In this document: piece after piece, positions 28,640-32,254 of the stretch
Position numbering within the stretch: the stretch's first letter is position 1
How the letters are laid out: each line of letters opens with the position of its first letter
Source: a virus
Virus record (IMG/VR): IMGVR_UViG_3300027777_000092
Coordinates: 1 to 32,254 of that record
Strand: one strand, 5' to 3'
Length of the DNA: 32,254 bases
Program-made: the position numbers and the translations under genes
The notes under the pieces: model-generated
Databases searched by the model: none
Seen by the model: only the letters and a program-made list of their open reading frames with translations
What the model was told of the DNA's origin: nothing

Positions 28640-29155
28640 ATGTCATCAATACAAGACTTACAAAGTACTATCAAACGGCGTGCCGGTTTATCACGAGGTA
28701 ATCGTTTTAAAATTATGATCTCTAATCCATTTGATACTGGCAAAGATCTTAGCCTATTGTGTGAAAGCTGTACTTTCCCTGGACGCCAAATTTTAAGTAC
28801 AGATTTCTCAGTATGGCGCAATGAAAATAAAGTACCTACTGGTTATACTGATGAAGATGTTACATGCGTCTTTTATTTGACAAATGATTATTATGTTAAA
28901 GACTTATTTGACAAATGGCTTGTCATGATACTTAATCCAGTATCATACCTAGTTGAATATACACAAACTTTTGCACGAACTGTTACTATACAACAATTAA
29001 ATGAAGCAGATGAACCAGTATATGAAGTTAATTTACCAAATGCATGGCCAGTTAGCGTAAATTCAATTGAATTGAATAATGATTCTGACAACACAGCTCA
29101 AAAATTAACTGTAGTATTTACATACAATACTTGGTCATCAAGAAAACTAACTTAA
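28640..29155 (+). CDS. Tail-tube-fold protein, gp19-like
   Basis: A 171-residue protein with the tail-tube pattern: NRFKIMISNPFDTGKDL, LLCESCTFPGRQILSTDFSV, then VPTGYTDEDVTCVFYLTNDY and FDKWLVMILNP, ending with QKLTVVFTYNTWSS. This beta-barrel family includes the gp19 tube subunit, tube initiators (gp54) and tail completion proteins. T4 gp19 is 163 residues, so the size fits the major tube, but its place between gp4 and gp26 rather than next to the sheath leaves room for a minor tube-type or completion protein. Another copy of the family probably lies elsewhere if this one is minor. It starts 2 bp after the previous stop (TAATAATG) and lacks a Shine-Dalgarno site. Confidence 0.72.
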   Translation: MSSIQDLQSTIKRRAGLSRGNRFKIMISNPFDTGKDLSLLCESCTFPGRQILSTDFSVWRNENKVPTGYTDEDVTCVFYLTNDYYVKDLFDKWLVMILNPVSYLVEYTQTFARTVTIQQLNEADEPVYEVNLPNAWPVSVNSIELNNDSDNTAQKLTVVFTYNTWSSRKLT

Positions 29156-29176: not shown

Positions 29177-29884
29177 ATGGCATTACCAATCCTAGAATCC
29201 CCAAAGTATACTGTTGAAATTCCTTCAAGTAAGAAGGCTGTTGAATATCGTCCGTTTCTTGTAAAAGAAGAAAAGATCCTGCTTATGGCTCAAGAGTCGC
29301 AGGATTCTCGTGAGATGTTAAATACAATGAAAGATATTATTCGTGCATGTACATTTGAAAAAATTGATGTAAATACTTTAACCTCGTTTGATCTTGAATA
29401 TGTTTTCCTAAAACTCCGTAGCAAAAGCATTGGCGAAATTAGCAATGTCAACATCAAGTGTGCGTCATGTGAAGCGCAAAATCCAATCGAGATTAACCTT
29501 GATGAAATACAAGTAAAATTTGATGAATCTGTATCAAAGACAATTATGATTACCGACACTGTTGGAGTTAATATGCGTTATATTCGTGTTAAAGATATGG
29601 GTGCATTAACTGATGATACTAAAACGCAAAGTGATCTTATCAACGATGTTGTCATTGCAAGCATTGAAAGTATCTTTGATGCCGATAAAGTTTACGCTAG
29701 TGAAAATTCAACAAAAGATGAATTGATTACCTTTATCAACAGTCTTAATCGTTCCCAAATGCAAAAGATTGAAGCATTCATCGCAGCAGTTCCTGCACTT
29801 AAAGAAAACATTCAATTCAAATGTAAAGGCTGTGGCCATGATAACAAACTTGAATTGTCTGGTACCCAAGCTTTTTTCGCCTAG
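29177..29884 (+). CDS. 26: gp26-like baseplate/tail assembly protein with a four-Cys zinc site
   Basis: A 235-residue protein of the T4_baseplate (gp26-like) family. It begins LPILESPKYTVEIPSSKK and contains YRPFLVKEEKILLMAQES and FDLEYVFLKLRSKSIGE, the usual family core. Two CxxC knuckles, Cys95/Cys98 (IKCASCEAQN) and Cys216/Cys219 (FKCKGCGHDN), should hold one zinc ion. The gene ends in a slippery run before TAG (see 29872-29878), and an open -1 frame follows. Together with its place directly upstream of the tape measure gene this suggests it acts as the short form of a G/GT-like tail assembly chaperone pair. T4 gp26 takes part in central hub assembly. Family confident; chaperone role inferred. 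Confidence 0.88.
   Translation: MALPILESPKYTVEIPSSKKAVEYRPFLVKEEKILLMAQESQDSREMLNTMKDIIRACTFEKIDVNTLTSFDLEYVFLKLRSKSIGEISNVNIKCASCEAQNPIEINLDEIQVKFDESVSKTIMITDTVGVNMRYIRVKDMGALTDDTKTQSDLINDVVIASIESIFDADKVYASENSTKDELITFINSLNRSQMQKIEAFIAAVPALKENIQFKCKGCGHDNKLELSGTQAFFA
29872..29878 (+). promoter_or_regulatory. Probable -1 ribosomal frameshift site (T TTT TTC)
   Basis: In the gp26 frame the bases read T TTT TTC with TTT and TTC as zero-frame codons, an exact X XXY YYZ heptamer. GCC TAG follows at once, so the stop is two codons after the slip. A -1 slip continues CGC CTA GCC CTC into the open frame that ends at 30060. I did not model a downstream pseudoknot. Confidence 0.75.
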
Positions 29885-30060
29885 CCCTCTCGCATGAATC
29901 ATTGGTTAATTATTTCCAAACCAACTTTGCTCTAATGCAGCATCACAAATACTCATTAAGCGAACTGGATATGATGATACCATGGGAGAGGGAGATATAC
30001 ATTTCAATGCTTGTAGCTCATCTTAAAGAAGAAGAACAAAAACGCAAAAATAGCAACTAA
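29878..30060 (+). CDS. -1 frame extension of gp26 (GT-like tail assembly chaperone domain)
   Basis: A 60-codon open frame in -1 relative to gp26, beginning at the slip (RLALSHESLVNYFQTNF) and continuing with LMQHHKYSLSELDMMIPWER and EIYISMLVAHLKEEEQKRK, then TAA 5 bp before the tape measure ATG. It has no ATG near its start; the first ATG (29935) is inside the likely helical domain and the only early alternative is TTG at 29902 without a Shine-Dalgarno site. With frameshifting the fused product would be 294 residues. Short helical proteins with an HHxYSLxE...PWERxIY pattern follow gp26-like genes in related phages as I recall. Real coding is very likely; fusion is the best explanation but is untested. 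Confidence 0.8.
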   Translation, partial: RLALSHESLVNYFQTNFALMQHHKYSLSELDMMIPWEREIYISMLVAHLKEEEQKRKNSN

Positions 30061-30065
30061 AAACA

Positions 30066-32254
30066 ATGGCCAATATAGAATCTAGTCAATTAGCAGAAGT
30101 AATTGCACAGCTTAAAAGTTTAAACTTTTCGCATGATGTGTTGTTGGACGCTATTGATGATAATAACAAATTGGTTGCAAAGAATATTCTAATTGGCTCA
30201 CAAGTTGAAGGACAGCGCATTGATAATGGTGGACAGCTGTTAGCAATGGTTATTAGTATACGCCGAATGGTTTTTGATCTCGGCAAAAGCAGTAAAGACT
30301 TGTTAGAATTCTTTACAAGCAATGATATGCAGCAAGAAGAAAATCGTAAAGATCTTCTTGCTGCCATAAGAGGCCGGGACAAGAAAGATGAAATGACCAA
30401 ACGAGTAACGCCAAAGAAAGGCGGTAAAGGCGATGATAGCGGATTGATCGGTATTCTTGCTTTTGCGGCTGGTCTTGTAGGCGGTACCGTTGTTGGGTTT
30501 GTTAGCAAAAGTGTTGAACTTTTTGCAGGCTATCTTAAAGATGCTAAATGGCTAAAATCAATTGGAGATTATGTTTTAAAAATAAATGAAAATATAGTTG
30601 CATTATTTGGACGAGTGTATGAAGCTGTATCTGTATGGCTTAAAGAAAACAAATTTATTCAATTTATAGCTGGTAAACTTTCTTCTATAGGAGAAACTAT
30701 AGCTGGAGTAATTGGAAAAGTAGCTGAGATATTTACATCAGCTACTGAAAGTATAAGTGCAATATTAGAAGAAAGTAAAATAGTACAATTTATCAGCGGT
30801 AAGTTAACGGCAATAGGAAAAATTTTAACATCATTTGGAGAATTCATTGGGTTTATCGCCGATCTTACAGTTTCATATTTAGATGTTACAATCTTTCAGC
30901 CTTTGGTTGGTAAACTGCAACAAATAGGTAAAGCTTGGAGTGCTTTTACTGAAACATTAAGTAGTGCATATGAAACGCTATCTGGGTTATTTAAAGCTGT
31001 AGAGTCAACTAGTGGAGCAGTGGGAGAGAGCGCAACCGGTATAAGCAAATTCTTTAGCGGCTTTACTAAATTTTTTGGATTCCTAAGTGATACATTTGGA
31101 ATGTTATTCAAGGGATTTGAAGCTGGTATTCAATTGGGAGAAGGTATAGCTAATGTATTGGGAGGAATACTAAAAGCGGTAGGCCCTTTGATGGAAGCTA
31201 TCGCATTCCCATTGTTAATTATAACTGGTCTAATTGGCGCTATCACAGGATTTATCAAAGGCTTTAAAGAAGATGGTATAATTGGTGGTATTAAAGGCGC
31301 AATAGTTGGAATATTTGATGCATTGGTAGGCGGCTTATTGGATATGATTAAAGGAGCAGTTTCATGGATTGCGTCCGCATTAGGATTTGATAACGTATCA
31401 AAGTTTCTTGACAGCTTCTCATTCTCTGATCTATTTAAAAAATATATTGATTGGATATTTGGTTTATATAAAAATATTTGGTTATGGATTACTGATGCTT
31501 TTTCGTGGAAAACAATATCAGGTATGTTTGAAAATTTTTCACTAGACGGATTATTATCTGGTTTTTATGGAGGAATTCTTGATAGTATAAAAGGAGCAGT
31601 TTCATGGATGGCTTCATTGTTTGGTTTTGATGGTATAAGCAAATACCTAGACAGCTTTTCTTTCTCCGATATATTTAAAACTGTATTTGATGCTATTGGC
31701 AAAGCAATAGATGGAGTCATTGATTGGATAATGAATATTCCACAATTGATTACCGCCCTTGGTGCTAAAATGGGAAGCATGATTAGTGGTGCTATAGGAG
31801 GTATTGGCAATATCGCTGAAGGATTTGCAAAAAGTGTACTAAAAGATGTACTGCCTGATCCTGCTGCAAATACAAGCATGCTCAATCCAATGCATTGGGT
31901 TGCAAAAGCAATACCTGACAGCATTTATGAATATGCAGGAATTAAAGCAGCTGCTGTTGAAGAAGGAACTGGTAAAGCTGCTGCGGCAGATACAAGCGGA
32001 GGTGCTAAACAAGTTACACCTTCAGGCGGAAATAATGGCGAATGGCCAAATTATTACACAGAAGAAAACGCACCTACAACAGGCCATGGCGATCATGTAC
32101 CATGGTTTCCTAATGCAAATAATGTAGGTGCCGAATTGATGAATAGTAGTCAGCCTCAAGGCGCCTCGGCTGTCATAGTTAATAATTATGGCGGCAATAC
32201 CACAACAAATACCACAAGTTCAACCAACAATACCCAAAGTTCCTATGATCCAAT
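30066..32254 (+). CDS. 29: Tape measure protein (partial, runs off the window)
   Basis: An open frame of 729 codons with no stop before the window end. It begins MANIESSQLAEVIAQLKSLN. Residues about 1-115 are helical and charged, followed by a hydrophobic stretch (LIGILAFAAGLVGGTVVGF near residue 127). The rest is repetitive amphipathic and hydrophobic helix of the kind that threads through the tail tube and may enter the host membrane, with a second strong segment at about 375-435 (FPLLIITGLIGAITGF). An 80-residue duplication lies at about 428-535. The tail end is Asn/Thr-rich (VNNYGGNTTTNTT), seen at the end of marine T4-like tape measures. T4 gp29 is 590 residues, so this one predicts a longer tail or an added domain. 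It follows the gp26 extension, the standard chaperone-tape measure order. Confidence 0.85.
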   Translation, partial: MANIESSQLAEVIAQLKSLNFSHDVLLDAIDDNNKLVAKNILIGSQVEGQRIDNGGQLLAMVISIRRMVFDLGKSSKDLLEFFTSNDMQQEENRKDLLAAIRGRDKKDEMTKRVTPKKGGKGDDSGLIGILAFAAGLVGGTVVGFVSKSVELFAGYLKDAKWLKSIGDYVLKINENIVALFGRVYEAVSVWLKENKFIQFIAGKLSSIGETIAGVIGKVAEIFTSATESISAILEESKIVQFISGKLTAIGKILTSFGEFIGFIADLTVSYLDVTIFQPLVGKLQQIGKAWSAFTETLSSAYETLSGLFKAVESTSGAVGESATGISKFFSGFTKFFGFLSDTFGMLFKGFEAGIQLGEGIANVLGGILKAVGPLMEAIAFPLLIITGLIGAITGFIKGFKEDGIIGGIKGAIVGIFDALVGGLLDMIKGAVSWIASALGFDNVSKFLDSFSFSDLFKKYIDWIFGLYKNIWLWITDAFSWKTISGMFENFSLDGLLSGFYGGILDSIKGAVSWMASLFGFDGISKYLDSFSFSDIFKTVFDAIGKAIDGVIDWIMNIPQLITALGAKMGSMISGAIGGIGNIAEGFAKSVLKDVLPDPAANTSMLNPMHWVAKAIPDSIYEYAGIKAAAVEEGTGKAAAADTSGGAKQVTPSGGNNGEWPNYYTEENAPTTGHGDHVPWFPNANNVGAELMNSSQPQGASAVIVNNYGGNTTTNTTSSTNNTQSSYDP
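31347..31440. repeat. Tandem duplication in the tape measure gene, unit 1
   Basis: Encodes IKGAVSWIASALGFDNVSKF then LDSFSFSDLFKK. It matches 31587-31680 with an offset of exactly 240 bp; 20 bases at 31350-31369 are identical in the copy. Confidence 0.8.
31587..31680. repeat. Tandem duplication in the tape measure gene, unit 2
   Basis: Encodes IKGAVSWMASLFGFDGISKY then LDSFSFSDIFK, the second copy of the 80-residue unit at 31347-31440. The protein is more alike than the DNA away from the identical 20 bases. Confidence 0.8.

Follow-up and report, generated by a model that had tools for sequence, protein, structure and literature searches.

Gene 26 of an uncultured T4-like phage very probably encodes a lambda-type tail assembly chaperone pair by programmed −1 frameshifting

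In an uncultured relative of phage T4, a programmed −1 frameshift at the end of gene 26 very probably adds a T domain to gp26, giving a long tail assembly chaperone; gp26 and the resulting gp26-51 would then correspond to G and GT of phage lambda, respectively. The DNA analyzed, hereafter the window, is the whole stretch of 32,254 nucleotides of IMG/VR record IMGVR_UViG_3300027777_000092 (positions 1 to 32,254). The features of the region are collected in Table 1.

Table 1. Features around the candidate slip site, in window coordinates
Feature	Coordinates	Strand	Remarks
Tail tube protein	28640..29155	+	PHROG 3629, 2.8e-33; PF06841, 1.4e-6
gp26, putative short tail assembly chaperone (G / TAC-N)	29177..29884	+	Pfam PF12322, 3.4e-58; PHROG 150, 1.2e-63
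Slippery heptamer T TTT TTC	29872-29878	+	In phase, near the 3′ end of gp26; kept in 60/63 lineages
gp26 zero-frame stop TAG	29882-29884	+	Two codons after the heptamer
−1 frame T domain (gp51 C-terminal domain), 60 codons + TAA	29878..30060	+	PHROG 634, 6.5e-28; BLASTP to T4 gp51, 5e-6
Tape-measure-like protein	30066..32252	+	Runs off the window; PHROG 58, 305 and 4372 at about 1e-7

The elements on which a preliminary description had based its proposal of a frameshift were all found again, namely an exact T TTT TTC in the correct phase, a TAG two codons later and a 60-codon −1 frame that lacks an ATG of its own ahead of its conserved core and ends just before the tape measure gene. The zero frame reads GCT TTT TTC GCC TAG, and (29872 − 29177) mod 3 = 2, which is the phase of tandem −1 slippage. 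The −1 frame, preceded by a TGA, is open from 29854 to 30057 and is closed by a TAA (30058-30060), 5 bp ahead of the tape-measure ATG at 30066. The added coding sequence amounts to 60 codons (29878-30057), or to 62 if the count starts at the first T of the heptamer; the predicted −1 product would comprise 294 aa (33.6 kDa), as compared with the 235 aa (26.5 kDa) of unshifted gp26. In-phase T6 occurs four times in the about 10,465 codons of the window genes, and only the one at 29872 is near the 3′ end of a gene.

The −1 frame finds its best family match in PHROG 634, which is named “baseplate hub assembly catalyst”, i.e. gp51, and a second, weaker match is to the C-terminal end of PHROG 150; the preliminary description had not recognized the C-terminal domain of T4 gp51 in the −1 product. 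A DNA end protector gene is found upstream of gp26 besides the tail tube gene, and the order tail tube - chaperone - tape measure is that of lambda; as to the tape-measure assignment of the ORF starting at 30066, each family match is weak, while several families agree. Gp26 also contains two CxxC pairs, CASC and CKGC, the second shortly ahead of the slip site, which likely form a zinc site; the zinc-ribbon Pfam matches to gp26 are weak, and the second pair is missing from several cyanophage relatives.

The heptamer and the −1 frame were then sought in homologues, a check suggested by the preliminary description. Among the loci scanned, from 80 IMG/VR relatives and two phage genomes, the extension lies in the −1 frame in 82 of the 82 where it was detectable, each with an in-phase T6 before the gp26 stop. 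The set was enlarged by additional phage records (Acidovorax ACP17, Aeromonas phiAS5 and avDM6, Vibrio Va3, Stenotrophomonas Marzo, Pseudomonas Astolliot, two Rhizobium phages, Melnitz, S-T4 and others), and clustering at 80% nucleotide identity defined 63 non-redundant lineages. In 60 of these, an in-phase T6 is present within the last 25 codons of gp26, with the same −1 domain behind it; these comparative data are decisive, and the slip site is not a chance occurrence. The three exceptions, PhaxI, Kevin and D503 (ATT TTC ATT TAA, GTT TTC ATC TAA and CTT TTC AAG TAA, respectively), have the same −1 domain and a shorter T run, so that slippage there may be single-tRNA or otherwise different. 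In lineage coordinates these sites lie at L100:3790-3810, L101:3706-3726 and L102:3745-3765; PhaxI and Kevin are Ackermannviridae, and Vibrio phage D503 groups with them.

The conservation concerns both the nucleotides of the slip site and the protein encoded behind it. The terminal Phe-Phe of gp26 is written as six T in 58 of 58 cases, versus 6 of 49 for the other Phe-Phe pairs of these genes (Fisher 9e-24), and the codon ahead of it ends in T in every case, though it codes for S, D, N, A or G; the invariable use of TTTTTT, preceded by a T-ending codon across five amino acids, shows selection on the nucleotides and not on the protein. The distance between the slip site and the −1 domain is constant, and conservation of the domain starts with its first codon (FFxxxLxHxxLxNxxxxNFxLMQHHxYSLxExxxMxPxER); when the window was compared with its four nearest relatives, the codon changes in the −1 frame were 11-14 synonymous and 1-3 nonsynonymous. 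Thus, the programmed −1 frameshift put forward in the preliminary description is supported by the T6, the −1 frame and the tail tube/tape measure position, all conserved across T4-like phages, and the same conservation, together with the gene order, speaks for gp26 in the role of G.

Three other accounts, i.e. a separate gene, transcriptional slippage and a sequencing error, were all weighed and rated low. The small −1 ORF might be a gene of its own, coding for a stand-alone gp51 C-terminal domain, with translation beginning at a start codon of its own or through reinitiation after termination at the gp26 stop, and it is annotated as such in the GenBank records of P-SSM2, phiM7, phiAS5, Va3, Marzo, P10VF and others. 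TAATG or TGATG overlaps occur in some lineages; homologues with an independent start and no slippery run, the pattern that the preliminary description regarded as contrary to frameshifting, were not what was found, the run being as widespread as described above, though an ATG lies within 15 nt of the gp26 stop in 17 of 58 lineages, so that coupled initiation is possible there, as an addition. In the window, however, a TTG at 29902 is the lone −1 frame start before the conserved core, the first ATG (29935) lying already within the core, and an SD-like sequence is absent at both; moreover, in about a third of the lineages (20/58) the −1 frame contains no ATG, GTG or TTG ahead of position +45, counted from the gp26 stop. 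Conservation of the −1 sequence extends upstream of any start: over the ten codons that precede the earliest potential start in the window, the changes with respect to the same four relatives are 2-3 synonymous and 0 nonsynonymous. Reinitiation would not need the T6, which is conserved at the nucleotide level, and the SD-like element present in other lineages is about 25 nt from those ATGs, too far to serve them; a separate gene is thus very unlikely.

Slippage of RNA polymerase on the T run, with the long form made from mRNAs with an altered number of U, appears extremely unlikely. Long T runs in general favour this process and the run reaches T7-T8 in several lineages, but T6, as in the window, is short for it; the tandem-slip phase is kept in all 60 T6 lineages, a C closes the run in 31 of them, and the upstream SD-like element of most lineages points to the ribosome. 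As for an originally in-frame gp26-gp51 fusion, split by a sequencing error or by a true frameshift mutation, the gp51 of T4-type phages is indeed a single-frame fusion; however, the same site and frame recur in independent contigs and in finished genomes of many phage groups, which makes the likelihood of this explanation practically negligible.

In T4 gp51, a PF12322 domain (residues 1-201, 3.9e-52) and, after it, the domain that lies in the −1 frame of the window are joined within a single reading frame. The two T4 proteins, gp26 and gp51, are similar to each other (2e-6), and between the profiles of the frameshift-type gp26 and of gp51 there is a match at 3.9e-15 that covers the gp26-like part and stops at the junction. 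T4 gene 26 ends in GAG TTC TTT GAG TTA CTA TAA, and no T domain follows. In T4, IME08, IME13, PspYZU05 and IT22, gene 51 is divergent from gene 26, which has neither a T domain behind nor an in-phase T6, so that these phages hold the short and the long form as two genes. T4 gene 26 lacks the frameshift extension because the long form is carried as gene 51, in agreement with the remark of the preliminary description that T4 gp26 itself is not known to use a frameshift. The phylogenetic tree resolves the frameshift-type gp26, the T-even gp26 and gp51 as three groups, all supported; the tree is unrooted, so the duplication is undated. Sequence comparisons thus support the proposal that the window gp26 is the counterpart of lambda G and gp26-51 that of GT, with T4 holding both as two genes.

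Elements that may stimulate slippage were searched on both sides of the site. Anti-SD pairing, scored on a 12-nt stretch whose end lies 3-6 nt ahead of the heptamer, averages −6.1 kcal/mol over the lineages, with 82% at or below −4 (background −0.87 and 8%, respectively). The SD-like element is typically GAG GGN at −14 to −9 from the heptamer (for example in lineages L013, L040 and L065); its Glu codon is GAG in 20 of 29 cases (background 27%, p 3e-6) and its Gly codon GGA or GGG in 35 of 57 (background 33%, p 1e-5), codon usage which indicates that the element is selected at the codon level. Stimulators of the dnaX type have a known spacing upstream of the slip site, and the distance of the element fits such a stimulator, not initiation at the downstream ATGs. 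In the window, no SD-like element was found at 29858-29871 (aSD −2.8 kcal/mol), and it is mostly absent in the lineage to which the window belongs.

The window genes are almost without SD (1 of 17 at or below −4, mean +0.1, weaker than random), so that the host of this phage may have no use for an SD-like stimulator, as judged from one clade; the leaders of the window genes are A/T-rich, as in hosts not using SD. Over the lineages, no correlation was found between the SD strength of gp26 and the upstream SD-like element, so that it is a single clade that connects the loss of the element with SD-free translation. Downstream structure, which the preliminary description had suggested to examine over about 60 nt, was seen in many lineages: folding of the 60 nt after the heptamer versus shuffles gives a mean z of −1.55 (control −0.41), with 22 of 59 lineages below −2, while the hairpin of the window is not significant (z −0.19). 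RNAalifold on ungapped blocks around the site revealed no common structure, nor was one conserved helix register found downstream, the registers differing by lineage. In L016, L036 and L056, the 70 nt that follow the heptamer contain strong 11-bp hairpins with loops of about 33 nt; these hairpins begin 5 nt beyond the heptamer and share their register, though not their sequences. Evenly poised between belief and doubt is a composite site, in which U UUU UUN would be combined, in most lineages, with a dnaX-like, codon-selected GAG-GGN element, whereas the SD-less lineage of the window would have dropped the latter and would depend on the bare heptamer or on some other feature.

In the proposed mechanism, a minority of ribosomes would slip at U UUU UUC, where the two tRNA-Phe would move back by one base and pair anew on U UUU UUU; these ribosomes would bypass the TAG and append the 60-residue T domain, yielding a long form (GT, TAC-NC) of low abundance with respect to the short gp26 (G, TAC-N). 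In the lambda model, G binds the tape measure and T the tail tube subunit, at a ratio of about 30:1, and both leave the tail (Atkins review, PMC5009743). By analogy, many short copies of gp26 would coat the tape-measure protein, the long copies, few in number, would recruit tail-tube subunits through their T domain, and both chaperones would then leave the tail.

AlphaFold models, built with the window and IMG/VR rows only, were confident (pLDDT 89.5 for gp26 and 85.8 for gp51), and were compared with the best PDB chains from Foldseek, followed by a VIA re-look. For the gp26 model the HK97 tail assembly chaperone gp13 (2ob9) came first, with Z 7.3 and rmsd 4.2 over 83 residues (gp26 1-85), a Z below 8 being one that may be due to chance; the next PDB chain had a Z of 2.8, well below that value. 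Foldseek gave no match of the gp51 model in the PDB, 2ob9 was not among the VIA re-look matches listed for this model, and profile searches of PDB sequences detected no solved relative of gp26 or gp51. Given the Z below 8 and the gp51 model without the same match, the HK97 chaperone fold that the N-terminal domain of gp26 may share is taken as supportive only.

In T4, gp26 and gp51 have been named as hub assembly chaperones, gp51 being required for assembly and absent from the particle (PMC3004832). The connection between T4 hub-assembly proteins and the lambda-type chaperone system, drawn in the preliminary description, stands; its novelty does not, as PMC10885494 and PMC12846349 credit Vladimirov, Gautam and Davidson (2022, Virology 566:9-15) with the identification of T4-like tail assembly chaperones. 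The same papers report, respectively, that some T4-like phages have a short gene and a longer fusion copy in place of the frameshift (PRFect, PMC10885494), and that poly-T frameshift signals are known in the TAC-N genes of T4-like phages (phage Adele paper, PMC12846349). The frameshift of the window is thus a lambda-type device already described for T4-like phages; the SD-like stimulator 9-14 nt upstream of the heptamer is possibly a new detail, and it offers a natural comparison of SD-using and SD-free phage lineages. In T4-like phages other than the T-even group, the −1 frameshift appears to be the rule, with T4 hub-assembly genes 26 and 51 as the two-gene form of the same chaperone pair, for whose long member “baseplate hub subunit” or “assembly catalyst” is a misleading name. 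The joined frames are annotated in none of the 15 frameshift-type GenBank records examined, hence the long chaperone is missing from their annotation.

As regards known systems, T4 gp26 and gp51 belong to the same families as the window proteins, with PF12322 in both and the C-terminal domain of gp51 corresponding to the −1 domain; T4 and the other 26/51-type phages differ in having a separate full-length gene 51 and no frameshift, whereas in the window and in other T4-like lineages one gene would make the long form. The UUUUUUC of the window differs from the heptamer of lambda G/GT, GGGAAAG, and resembles the TTTTTTG of E/E+E′ in P2, a contractile-tailed phage that also has a T-run heptamer, in a different protein; T TTT TTG is the slip site of the two Rhizobium phages of the comparison set. 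The TACs of Vandenendeviridae and Andersonviridae, as presented in the phage Adele paper (PMC12846349), share a −1 frameshift upstream of the tape measure, usually unannotated, and a conserved poly-T motif, but they belong to another phage group and their motif is GTTTTT, not an in-phase T6. With lambda G/GT (Xu, Hendrix and Duda) and HK97 gp13 the window shares the order tail tube - chaperone - tape measure, a −1 slip, predicted in the window, close to the end of the short-form gene, and a C-terminal extension; unlike these proteins, the window gp26 has further domains with paired CxxC motifs.
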